From NCBI GenBank assembly GCA_029571215.1, contig JAKPTE010000039.1:1-64000 (forward strand): a stretch of 64,000 bases of DNA. Reading direction: 5' to 3'. Each line of letters starts with the position of its first letter. The first letter of the stretch is position 1. The stretch is from Bacteroidota bacterium (GTDB lineage: Bacteria > Bacteroidota > Bacteroidia > Bacteroidales > JAAYUG01). Made by a program: the position numbers and the translations under genes. Shown here piece after piece: positions 55,433 to 64,000 of this stretch. The notes beneath the pieces were generated by a model that did not search any database, was not told the DNA's origin, and saw nothing but the letters and a program-made list of their open reading frames with translations.

Positions 55433-56443
55433 TCACAAATTCTCGATACTGTTTTTAAGAAGAGCTTTGATGTACCTGTAATTATGAACGCCACCGCTGC
55501 GGTCTTCCTTAACAAGCAGGTAATTGAGCAAAGCCCCTGCCTGATTGGATGAAAGTTCCAGCGGAGCATTGGATGTGGCATTAATCTGGTTATTTGATGT
55601 AAGGATATTTTGCTCCCTCAGCTTTCCGGCAAGCTGCGTCAGGAGTGAATCTGTTTCGCTTCTCACGGCGTCTAACAGGTTGGTCAGCTCTGTTGTATTG
55701 TTGTGACACTCCTTACAACCTGCAAAGTTATACGCAGTGGTACCATAAGATTCGTAAGCTATTTTCATGGTGTGACCGCCGGATTTGTTCCCTATGGCAG
55801 CCGCCATATGGCAGGTAATGCATCCGTTGGTGAGATCGGTATGGGAAGAATTGCCATAAGCCTCGCTACCGCTCAGTTCCATTCCTCCTGAACCCCTGAT
55901 GATGGAAGCCTGAGTACTGTGATGCGGACCCCAGTATCCCGATCGGATTGTTACTGAACTGCCATTCAGAATAGGTAACGGGTCCGGAATCCGTGGCTGG
56001 TGGCAATTAATACAAAGATTCCCCTTTCCCTGATTTAGCGTTTCTCCGGTTATCATCAGCTGAACGGGAGACTTTGTCCGGAGTTCCCAATCGGATGTAT
56101 CGTATGACTCATGAATTTTGTGGCAGGTACGACAACCAATGGAAGAAGGATTCGATATGGACGCGCTGGTTACGGTCTTACCGCTTGTTATACATTCCCG
56201 GAAACCTTCGCTGGTATGACACATGGCACATGTTGTCGCATTGCGATCTGTGTTTTCACCGCTGGCATGAATAGATGTTCTCCATTGTTCGGTTGCCGAG
56301 ACAATAAGAGAACCGCTATTGTGGCACTGAGTGCAGGTTGCATTGGCATCTGCTCCGGGAGGACCTTCGCAGGCTATTAGTAAGGGAACCGTAATAGCGG
56401 GCAGAAAAAAACGAATTCCCAAAGAGTATTGTTTTATTTTCAT
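55433..56443 (-). CDS. Six-haem c-type cytochrome lipoprotein
   Basis: 336 residues from the ATG at 56443 (the longer frame to 56482 lacks a signal start). Lipobox LLIAC predicts a lipid anchor. Six CxxCH haem motifs are present: CTQCH, CAMCH, CRTCH, CINCH, CITCH and CKECH. The last ~90 residues are haem-free and helical. The layout resembles cytochrome c3/c-552-type multihaem electron carriers; donor and acceptor are unknown. It heads the run with ResB and CcsA, the machinery that would mature it. Confidence 0.93.
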   Translation of the reverse strand: MKIKQYSLGIRFFLPAITVPLLIACEGPPGADANATCTQCHNSGSLIVSATEQWRTSIHASGENTDRNATTCAMCHTSEGFRECITSGKTVTSASISNPSSIGCRTCHKIHESYDTSDWELRTKSPVQLMITGETLNQGKGNLCINCHQPRIPDPLPILNGSSVTIRSGYWGPHHSTQASIIRGSGGMELSGSEAYGNSSHTDLTNGCITCHMAAAIGNKSGGHTMKIAYESYGTTAYNFAGCKECHNNTTELTNLLDAVRSETDSLLTQLAGKLREQNILTSNNQINATSNAPLELSSNQAGALLNYLLVKEDRSGGVHNYRYIKALLKNSIENL

Positions 56444-56644
56444 TTTTTCCGGAAAAATATTTTTTGTACTTATTAGATACATTTCACGGACAAATTGCCC
56501 TTAGTGACGCATAATTGTCTTTTCATCGGACTTATTTTCTGTTTTTTCCGAATAAAAGTATTTTGTAAATTGAGGGGGTGAGGAACAAATGCAGAAAATG
56601 TTCCTTCAAATTGTCTAAATTTGTGCTGATTCAAAAAACAAGCC
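56444..56644. promoter_or_regulatory. Divergent intergenic region, with -7 box for the AsmA-like gene
   Basis: 200 nt between the cytochrome and AsmA-like genes. TAAATTTG at 56616-56623 matches TAnnTTTG exactly, 21 nt before the plus-strand ATG. The minus-strand promoter is not clear. Confidence 0.45.
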
Positions 56645-59460: not shown

Positions 59461-59600
59461 AACCCGGAATAATGCATAAGAAATCTTTGGCACTAATGCA
59501 TTGTGAGTAAATTTGCAGGGGCGTATTCCGGGTTAACCCTGATGAATCAAAGACTCAATCGACCAGAAAGGTAATGAATACATTTTCAATGCATGAATAA
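59461..59600 (+). repeat. Dispersed palindromic element, copy B
   Basis: Outer arms AACCCGGAAT (59461-59470) and ATTCCGGGTT (59525-59534) are perfect 10-bp inverted repeats; AATGCAT/ATGCATT pair inside. The conserved tail (AACCCTGATGAATC ... GGTAATGAATACATTTT) follows. The extra A:T pair relative to copies A and C occurs in both arms, as expected if the stem is maintained. Confidence 0.75.
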
Positions 59601-59685: not shown

Positions 59686-60186
59686 ATGAAAAAGTGCAAT
59701 GTCATCTCTGTTCTTTTGTTGTTTCTTGCAGGTAGTTTATCTGCACAGCAAATAACACCGTTTGTCATTGCTTCTGCCGGTGATTTTTACAGCTCCCAGA
59801 ATTTTTCTGTGAGCTGGACACTGGGTGAATTAGCCACAGAAACCATAGGTACGGAGGTTATCCTTACCCAGGGTTTTCAGCAACCTTCCTATAGCACGGG
59901 AACTTATGTTCCTCCTGTATCTTCAGACCAGTTCCGTCTCAGGGTTTATCCCGTACCTGCCTACAATTCACTCACTGTTCAGGTGAAAGGAAATGAAACG
60001 ACCGATCTGTATCTGGATATGTATGATGCTCTTGGCCGGAAGTTGATTTCAGCAAAAATAGAAGCCGGAACACCCGAATATGAGATGGATCTGTCGGGAA
60101 TTCATCCGGGAATGTATTTTCTGAAGGTTACAACGGCTGCCGGCGAAAGTATCAAAACCTACCAGATACCGAAAGCGCTGAAATAA
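59686..60186 (+). CDS. Small secreted protein with T9SS type A sorting domain
   Basis: 166 residues. Signal peptide (ends ...GSLSAQ). Residues ~20-85 are a short beta domain ('FSVSWTLGELATETIGTEVI', 'LTQGFQQP') seen in many small T9SS cargoes. Residues ~90-166 are the type A C-terminal sorting domain: 'LRVYPVPAYNSLTVQV', 'LDMYDALGRKLISAKI', 'SGIHPGMYFLKVTTAAGESI'. The protein is expected to pass the outer membrane by T9SS and be anchored or released. Function of the passenger unknown. TTTG (59616-59619) and TATATTTA (59643-59650) could be its promoter. A terminator follows at 60228. Confidence 0.9.
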   Translation: MKKCNVISVLLLFLAGSLSAQQITPFVIASAGDFYSSQNFSVSWTLGELATETIGTEVILTQGFQQPSYSTGTYVPPVSSDQFRLRVYPVPAYNSLTVQVKGNETTDLYLDMYDALGRKLISAKIEAGTPEYEMDLSGIHPGMYFLKVTTAAGESIKTYQIPKALK

Positions 60187-60227: not shown

Positions 60228-60262
60228 AAATCCGGCTTGCAACGTTCTTGCATGCCGGATTT
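60228..60262 (+). terminator. Intrinsic terminator after the T9SS cargo gene
   Basis: AAATCCGGCTTGCAA (60228-60242) pairs with TTGCATGCCGGATTT (60248-60262), with a single T:T mismatch and a 5-nt loop, then GTTGTTTT. Confidence 0.8.
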
Positions 60263-60343: not shown

Positions 60344-63142
60344 ATGAAAACACCCGTCAACCAGCTTTCGAGACAGACTCTTCTGTTTTTAATGCTATTT
60401 CTTCCATACTTTCTGTTCATTGATAAACCTGCTAAGGCTCAGGATTTTCCGGGTTTTAGGTACCAAGCTATAGCAAGGGATGCAGATGGTTTGCCATTGA
60501 AAAATACTGTGATCAAGGTACGATTCAAAATTCTTGCAGGTGATCCGGTAAATGGGACAGTGGTATATACCGAAACCCACGAAACAACTACAAATGCGTT
60601 TGGGTTGTTTGTTCTTGAGGTCGGGAAAGGCACGAGTTCCGATCAATTTGATGTCATTGACTGGGGAAATAGCGAAATGCATCTCTCTATTGAAGTCGAT
60701 GCTAATAACAGCGGGTATCAATTGGCAGGTACCACCAGGCTTCTCGCTGTGCCATATGCACTTTATGCTTTTCATGGAACGGAAGGACCACAAGGTCCTC
60801 AGGGGCCTGAGGGTCCACAGGGGCCAAAGGGTGACAAGGGTGATACAGGCCCGCAGGGTCCACAAGGGAATCCAGGTCCTCAGGGGCCTGCCGGACCGCA
60901 AGGTCCTCAGGGGATTCAGGGACCAGTTGGTCCGAAGGGGGATAAGGGAGATCCCGGCCCTCCGGGACCGGCAGGAACCAGTCTCTGGGATTCAGCAGTT
61001 AATGTTATCTGGACAGGAAAAAAGGTTGGGGTTGGTACCAGTGACCCCAACGGAAAGTTGGTGGTCATGGGCGAACCAACAACCAACATTGATACAGCAC
61101 TTTTCGAAGTGAAGGACAAATCAGGAAGGCCAGTTTTTTCCGTTTATGAGGAAGGTGTCAAATTTCTTCTTAAAGATGATAACCTCACCGGAAAAAGGGG
61201 GGGATTTGTTGTACGGGGTTATCATTCCTCGGCAGGTATCCATGATATACTGAAGGTTACTAACGATAGTATCCGTATTTATTTTTCCGATCCGCCATCA
61301 ACCGGTACCGGAGGTTTTTCCCTCATCAGCCGAAAATCGGGAGTGGAAGTTTCACAAATGCTAATAACGCCTGCCAATCAGTTTATTGGTGTGCGCAGCG
61401 GTAACCGTTCTGCTACCGGTGTGAGCAATGCATTTTTCGGGTTTGAATCCGGAAACGGACTATCAGCAGGAAGCTACAATACCCTGCTTGGCTATCAGGC
61501 AGGAAGCAAACTAAAAAATGGAAACAACAATATTCTTGTTGGATATCAGTCGGGATACGAAAATACCGATGGAAATTACAATATTTTCATAGGAAATGAA
61601 GCAGGAAGATATAATACCTCTCAGGTTCATAACCTGTTTGCCGGATATAGGGCAGGATATAATAACGGTTTGGGAGGTACCACCGGAGAAGAGGGATCGT
61701 ACAATATGTTTCTTGGGTATGAAGCAGGATATGCTAACACGAAAGGAAAATACAATCTGTTTATTGGCCATCAGTCAGGCCGTTCAAATACTACAGGTAC
61801 AACCAATATTTTTGTGGGGTCAAAAAGCGGATTTTTTAATCAGACCGGTAGTCGCAACCTTTACATGGGTGAGACGGCAGGATATTCCAATACCAGCGGA
61901 AGCAATAATGTTTTTCTGGGTGCCGGAAGCGGAAACCTTAACACCGGTTCTGAAAATGTTGTGATTGGAAGCGACGCAGGTTATAATTCCGGAGCCAGTA
62001 GCCGGAATGCTGTAATGGGGTATCAGGCTGCCCGCAATATGACTGCCGGTACCGGAAATATTATGCTGGGAAATCAAGCCGGATATTCAATGGCAAATGC
62101 ATCATCCAACGTTGTCATCGGAGACCAGGCAGGTTACAACAGTCTTCGGGGTACCAGAAATGTGTTCCTTGGATACCAGAGCGCTTTTTCCTGGAGCCGG
62201 GGCTCCGAAAATATTGTGATCGGTTCCTCTGCCGGTTATGCTGCTGATTCAGGAATGTACAATATCTTTCTTGGAGCTTCCTCCGGATTGATTAACCAGG
62301 GAAACCGGAACGTTTTTATAGGCGCAGAAACCGGATTTAATAATACTTTGGGTGAAGACAACCTCTTTATTGGCTATCAGGCAGGCTATAATAACAGCGG
62401 AACCACCGGAGGCAGTAATAATATATTTCTGGGAAATCAGGCAGGCTTTTCCAATACCAACGGGGCCGACAATCTGTTCATCGGTAATCTGGCAGGATAT
62501 TTTAATACCACCGGGAAGGAAAATATTGTCCTCGGAAGGGAGGCCGGATATAACCTCTCTGCGGGTGGCAGAAATGTTATTCTGGGAGATAAAGCCGGTT
62601 ATAGTGTTCAGGATGGTAACGGGAATGTTTTTATAGGATATGAAGCCGGTATGAATGAAACAGCCTCCGGCAAATTGTATATTGCCAACAATGCATCCCG
62701 GCCATTGATATATGGTCAGTTCAGCTCCGATACCATGGTGGTGATCAATGGAACTGATGCACAGAATACATCGAAATATACCTTTTACGTCAATGGAACC
62801 GCAGGTGGAAAAGACAGCTGGAATTCACTTAGCGATTACCGTCTTAAAAAAGACATCCGGACTATTACCGGGGCACTCAATAAGGTGAAGAGGCTTCGTG
62901 GAGTAACGTTCCAATGGAAAGATGAAGCTCCTGATGTGCAACCGCACATAGGATTTATTGCCCAGGAAATGGCGGAAGTTGTTCCGGAAGTTGTTCATAC
63001 AGAAGGCGGAATCTATTCTGTTCAGTACGCCCCAGTTACAGCTGTTCTGGTGGAAGCAATCAAAGAACAACAACATATGATTGAACAGCTGCAGGAAGAA
63101 ATTCGCCTGTTAAAGGAAGAAGTTACCAACCTGAAACATTAG
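60344..63142 (+). CDS. Collagen-like, repeat-head fibre protein with S74 chaperone
   Basis: 932 residues with a signal peptide (ends ...PAKAQ, ~33). Residues ~35-145 are a beta domain ('[20 protein letters not shown]'). Residues 148-212 are 21 uninterrupted Gly-X-Y triplets rich in Pro, Lys and Asp, a collagen-like stalk. Residues ~350-770 hold 24 copies of a ~20-residue unit of form N-x-[FLIV]-x-G-x-x-[AS]-G, resembling trimeric beta-helical heads. Residues ~825-932 are a peptidase S74 intramolecular chaperone (SDYRLKKDI at 830, '[18 protein letters not shown]') ending in a coiled coil. In phage fibres S74 trimerises the stalk and self-cleaves before the Ser. Here the protein is exported and has no phage neighbours. 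No T9SS tail is seen. Confidence 0.9.
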
Positions 63143-63594: not shown

Positions 63595-64000
63595 AGTTCC
63601 AGAAATTTGAAAACGAAATATAATGAATTCTTCAGCTTTAGCAAAAAACCTTTAATTCTTCAGGAGGAGATATTTTCCGGTGAGGTCAGGTACATCCGTC
63701 CCCAAAGATTTTCTGTTTGTTTACCAATGTCTTCCCCCTGGCATTTTTTTTATGTTTAAACCGAAACACATTGAACCCGGATAATGCATTAGAAGTGTAA
63801 CGCACTATTTCATTGTGAGTTGCCTCGTAGGGGAGTATCCGGGTTAACCCCGAGGAATCAAAATTCAATCGGGCTGCTAGGTGATACATGTATTTTAAAT
63901 GCTTTTATCAGGTTGAAAATTAAAAACAAAAGGATCTGGGCGATAAAGGATAAAACTGGTATTTTTGTCACCGTTTGCTGTGTGAAAATATTGACGAACA
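63595..64000. other. Intergenic region to window end
   Basis: About 400 nt without a credible gene. It contains palindromic repeat copy C (63774-63900). The last ~100 nt are AT-rich and may include the start of a neighbour outside the window. Confidence 0.45.
63774..63900 (+). repeat. Dispersed palindromic element, copy C
   Basis: Outer arms AACCCGGAT (63774-63782) and ATCCGGGTT (63837-63845); between them ATGCATTAG and AGTG/CACT short stems. The conserved tail (AACCCCGAGGAATC ... GGTGATACATGTATTTT) follows to about 63900. Same orientation as copies A and B. Confidence 0.75.

Follow-up and report, generated by a model that had tools for sequence, protein, structure and literature searches.

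A MAT-like S74 fibre gene and its linked T9SS-tagged partner gene in a Bacteroidota genome

The DNA analysed here (the window) comprises the first 64,000 nucleotides of contig JAKPTE010000039.1 of a Bacteroidota bacterium (assembly GCA_029571215.1), a genome that is 76% complete. Towards its end, the window carries a gene for a cysteine-free fibre protein and, directly upstream, a smaller gene for a protein with a T9SS sorting domain (Table 1).

Table 1. Features of the partner and fibre genes (window coordinates).
Feature	Coordinates	Strand	Basis
Partner gene (166 aa), with signal peptide, core of ~47 aa and type A T9SS sorting domain	59686..60186	+	Pfam, NCBIfam, conserved neighbour
Partner core VIASAG...SWTLGE...LTQGFQQP	59752..59892	+	No Pfam/NCBIfam model found
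Partner type A T9SS C-terminal sorting domain, aa 87-158	59944..60159	+	PF18962; confidently modelled beta domain
Terminator-like hairpin in the spacer that separates partner and fibre genes	60228..60262	+	Folding vs shuffles
Fibre gene, 932 aa	60344..63142	+	ORF, Pfam, sequence
Signal peptide, aa 1-33	60344..60442	+	By eye, sequence features only
N-terminal MAT-N-like domain, aa 34-144, predicted beta-sandwich	60443..60775	+	NF053851, AlphaFold, no phage match
Collagen-like Gly-X-Y stretch, aa 145-213, 23 triplets	60776..60982	+	Pfam Collagen
25 head-type repeats, aa 345-769, ~17 aa each	61376..62650	+	Pattern; phage structural protein matches
S74 chaperone/protease domain, aa 830-932, helix-forming C-terminus	62831..63139	+	PF13884, 67.4 bits

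The fibre gene is flanked on one side by genes for cytochrome c assembly, ResB, a multihaem cytochrome and AsmA. The genes on the other side, which lie beyond the window on the same 131.6-kb contig, encode a RapZ-like protein, a nucleotidyl transferase, ribosomal protein L19, peptidase C69, AnmK and RNase Y. No phage genes were seen near the fibre gene, within the window or beyond it on this contig. This agrees with the preliminary description, which had noted the lack of phage genes nearby and had named prophage genes just outside the window as a finding that would refute it. A multihaem cytochrome gene at 55433-56482 has an N-terminus that reads CEGPPGADANATCTQCHN; in its likely counterpart from a genome of the same family (L201) the collagen-like stretch is longer (CEGPAGPAGIAGVNGKDGVNGKDANATCTQCHN). 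The partner-fibre block is flanked, at 59464-59592 and 63776-63902, by direct copies of a dispersed intergenic repeat (core TATCCGGGTTAACCCNGANGAATCAAA); the repeat was rejected as a module boundary, as about 20 copies occur genome-wide.

The collagen-like stretch of the fibre protein scored 31.4 bits against Pfam Collagen (cut-off 27.2), and 21 of its triplets form a strict core. The head-type repeats were matched by phage structural families of the PHROGs collection, and Pfam YadA_head gave no match in the 932-aa protein. Peptidase_S74 (PF13884; Pfam cut-off 22 bits) was matched over residues 830-885, a region that includes the motif SDYRLK. The elements listed in the preliminary description were thus recovered, with one correction: the N-terminus is signal-peptide-like by eye, the "21 perfect" triplets are the core of a run of 23, the S74 domain lies well above its cut-off, and the head repeats, given as 24, number 25 by pattern. 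An outer-membrane anchor, a lipobox and a T9SS tag were looked for in the fibre protein with Pfam, NCBIfam and inspection of the sequence, and none was found.

Ser830 and Lys835 of SDYRLK, the serine and the partner catalytic residue that had been proposed for inspection, are both in place and were invariant in all 45 aligned Bacteroidota S74 domains. Their spacing is that of the Ser-Lys dyads of endoNF (S911/K916) and MYRF (S587/K592), which are five residues apart (PMC8326128). Cleavage is predicted just before Ser830, with Ser830/Lys835 as the dyad. Genes encoding S74 domains were present in 71 of 149 genomes of the same order. The same genome has, on contig C4 (L005:968-4833), a further gene for an S74 fibre, of 884 aa and with a different N-terminus; the gene directly after it has a weak match to a T9SS sorting domain, below the Pfam cut-off.

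Comparison of the N-terminal domain with the NCBIfam model Bdello_MAT_N (NF053851) gave 27.2-34.6 bits, with a best E-value of 1.6e-8. As these scores fall below the curated cut-off of 60, the family is termed MAT-like here and is not assigned to MAT. The homology, at 34.6 bits, is to the conserved beta-rich domain of about 130 residues that follows the signal peptide in MAT proteins, and AlphaFold modelled the domain confidently as a beta-sandwich (pLDDT 93). All 49 aligned relatives of the domain matched the MAT-N model, as did 59 of 60 full-length fibres. The best E-value among these 60 was 1.2e-16, with a score that may be near or just over the cut-off; none of the 149 genomes of the order and none of the 198 in a phylum-wide sample exceeded it. 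By profile comparison, the domain is a distant homologue of MAT-N. The preliminary description had missed that this domain is bacterial, with no match in the phage collection. Sequence and fold searches of the PDB returned no convincing match for it (best E-value 1.1e-3, TM about 0.4).

MAT-N-like domains were found in 97 of the 149 order genomes and in 55 of the 198 phylum-sample genomes. The tips borne by the 60 full-length relatives were diverse (17 S74, 12 collagen, 5 Lcl_C, 4 Fib_succ_major, 3 YadA head, and others). A conserved N-terminal end joined to diversified tips is thus found across Bacteroidota. The MAT fibres of Bdellovibrio have a conserved beta-rich domain after the signal peptide, and then a fibre, with an S74 tip in 13 of 21; they are displayed on the surface, and self-cleavage was tested and shown for one S74 member (PMC10769870). 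The view of the gene as encoding an exported, chromosomal, phage-fibre-like protein was borne out. The novelty attached to it was not, as an exported bacterial S74 fibre is an already known arrangement that follows the same plan as these Bdellovibrio fibres (PMC10769870), and S74 genes are common in the order.

The upstream gene, which the preliminary description had missed, is a conserved T9SS-tagged partner. Its sorting domain scored 45.4 bits against Por_Secre_tail (Pfam cut-off 27) and 40.5 bits against TIGR04183 (cut-off 23), as in type A T9SS cargo, and the TIGR04183 tag was present in all 20 aligned partners. No T9SS sorting domain was detected in any of the 60 fibre relatives (NCBIfam), in any of 84 full-length fibres, or in the 932-aa fibre itself (Pfam, NCBIfam). 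The partner core matched no Pfam or NCBIfam model and was modelled by AlphaFold at low confidence when taken alone. Profile comparison showed no relation between the partner and the fibre N-domain. The 157-nt spacer between the two genes folds better than all of 200 shuffles (z = -3.0). The hairpin within it is absent from the list of a consensus scan; as it separates the two genes, they may not be co-transcribed.

Partner and fibre genes were closely linked in three samples. Among 41 relatives, 51 partner cores were found. For 36 of them an N-domain gene was no more than 2.5 kb away, without exception on the same strand, compared with about 0.4 expected, and the fibre was downstream in 34 of the 36. 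These 41 genomes had supplied the partner training sequences, and the linkage test was therefore repeated on the phylum-wide sample, with the present genome left out of the partner count. In this independent sample 33 of 34 partners had a MAT-N-like gene no more than 2.7 kb away, again always on the same strand (0.09 expected), with the fibre downstream in 29 of the 33. The N-domain was present in all 25 partner genomes (Fisher p about 6e-17). The figure of 33 of 34 may be inflated, since the partner model was built from fibre-adjacent copies and subfamilies elsewhere may be missed; such ascertainment cannot by itself create adjacency. In the third sample, taken from the fibre side, 49 of 98 N-domain genes had a partner no more than 700 nt away; its strand was always that of the fibre gene, and it lay upstream in 38 cases. 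About half of the N-domain genes with enough upstream sequence thus had no adjacent partner, and 29 of the 54 N-domain genomes of the phylum sample had no detected partner. As the partner core is short, some partners may be missed; alternatively, the partner may not be required.

Partners without a paired fibre gene were also inspected in the relatives. Two adjoin a divergent N-domain gene and one adjoins an S74 fibre whose N-terminus is of a different kind. Two are at contig ends, one of them preserving the window's order of AsmA followed by the partner; two lie beside PorP/SprF-like genes, and several have no fibre. Partner-type genes were observed directly beside PorP/SprF-OmpA genes, not fibre genes, in L196 and L197. 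At another locus (L203:1467-5511), a T9SS-type protein of 748 aa begins with the partner core, and its gene adjoins a fibre-like ORF with head repeats.

The best explanation of these data, and one that we moderately favour, is a MAT-like surface fibre for which the T9SS-tagged partner serves as carrier or anchor. It builds on the domain architecture, the catalytic residues, the homology of the N-domain to MAT-N, the linkage of the two genes and the way in which the signals are divided between their products, all of which are read from the sequences. The identity of the protein as a fibre is well supported on these grounds; trimerisation and cleavage are predicted. The fibre would cross the inner membrane by its signal peptide, presumably through Sec. 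Three chains would associate via the S74 domain, the repeat shaft and the collagen-like stretch, and the S74 domain would cut itself off at Ser830 to leave a trimeric rod. The N-terminal bacterial domain would stay at the cell, with the far end probably acting as a variable adhesive tip at the surface. The role proposed for the partner is to bind this N-terminal domain and to carry the fibre, hold it at the surface, or both, through the type IX system. This role is hypothesised from the linkage, and a surface protein that merely functions alongside the fibre would also be compatible with these data. Folded proteins are moved by the T9SS (PMC9251779), and type A cargo is anchored to A-LPS (PMC12618676; PMC9143113). 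A more specific version, which we put forward tentatively, is that the tagged adapter binds the N-domain of the untagged fibre and, acting in trans, exports or anchors a fibre that has already trimerised, as a piggyback route used across Bacteroidota. In such a route the fibre would lack a T9SS tag for the reason that the tip occupies its C-terminus. Should the linkage prove to be functional, the pair offers a testable candidate for the surface route of fibres with a blocked C-terminus in Bacteroidota. It would also offer a candidate for the binding target of the MAT-type N-terminal domain, a question left open by the MAT paper (PMC10769870). No description of the pairing was found in the open-access literature searched on T9SS co-secretion and on Bacteroidota S74 fibres.

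The main alternative is that the fibre does not depend on the T9SS for its way to the surface, as in Bdellovibrio, and that its neighbour is a co-functioning surface protein and neither carrier nor anchor. The N-domain genes that have no adjacent partner are consistent with this, as is the surface display of Bdellovibrio MAT fibres, for which no T9SS partner is described (PMC10769870). However, the linkage is very tight, has a fixed orientation and recurs in the independent sample. The distribution of SprA also argues against this alternative: SprA was detected in 140 of the 149 order genomes, including the present one, and MAT-N-like domains occurred in 96 of these 140 and in one of the nine genomes lacking it (p = 0.001), although genome size is a confounder. 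The single SprA-less genome with such a domain is 82% complete. On balance, a T9SS-independent route appears rather unlikely.

A still less probable reading is that the protein, once folded, remains in the periplasm or is shed, and forms no surface fibre. The failure to find an outer-membrane anchor, lipobox or T9SS tag in the fibre would fit this, whereas the surface display of the homologous MAT fibres (PMC10769870) and the linkage to an exported T9SS protein speak against it. An origin as a relic of a prophage, a phage-tail-like particle or an injection-system fibre is suggested by the shaft and S74 domain, which match phage tail fibres (1112 phage records), but it is strongly disfavoured, and was rejected, in view of the signal peptide, an N-domain with no match in the phage collection, the housekeeping genes on both sides and the wide spread in the order. 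In sequence, the protein combines an anchor of bacterial type with a shaft and tip that are phage-like.

Several known systems share parts of this arrangement. YadA-type trimeric autotransporters have a similar repetitive trimeric surface-fibre plan, and a few N-domain relatives carry YadA_head repeats, but an identity as such an autotransporter was rejected, as the present protein has no match to the YadA membrane anchor (Pfam) and ends in an S74 domain. The partner shares with type A T9SS cargo a signal peptide and a TIGR04183/PF18962 domain above cut-off, whereas the fibre has no such domain and the mature part of the partner is very small. Phage tail fibres and endosialidases with an S74 chaperone (endoNF, the T5 L-shaped fibre) share the Ser-Lys dyad, and the repeat shaft resembles phage structural proteins; in contrast, the present fibre is an exported bacterial protein with a bacterial N-domain and no virion genes nearby. 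A further such system is the S74 group of the MAT superfamily, such as Bd3182 of Bdellovibrio bacteriovorus. Common to both are the signal peptide, an N-terminal beta-rich domain homologous by profile, a repetitive fibre, an S74 tip with SDxxxK, and a conserved N-terminal end combined with diversified tips. The present fibre differs in an N-domain below the NCBI curated cut-off, in its collagen-like stretch and its own repeat shaft, in its linked T9SS-tagged partner, and in belonging to another phylum. MAT-like fibres are thereby extended to a large phylum, the Bacteroidota.
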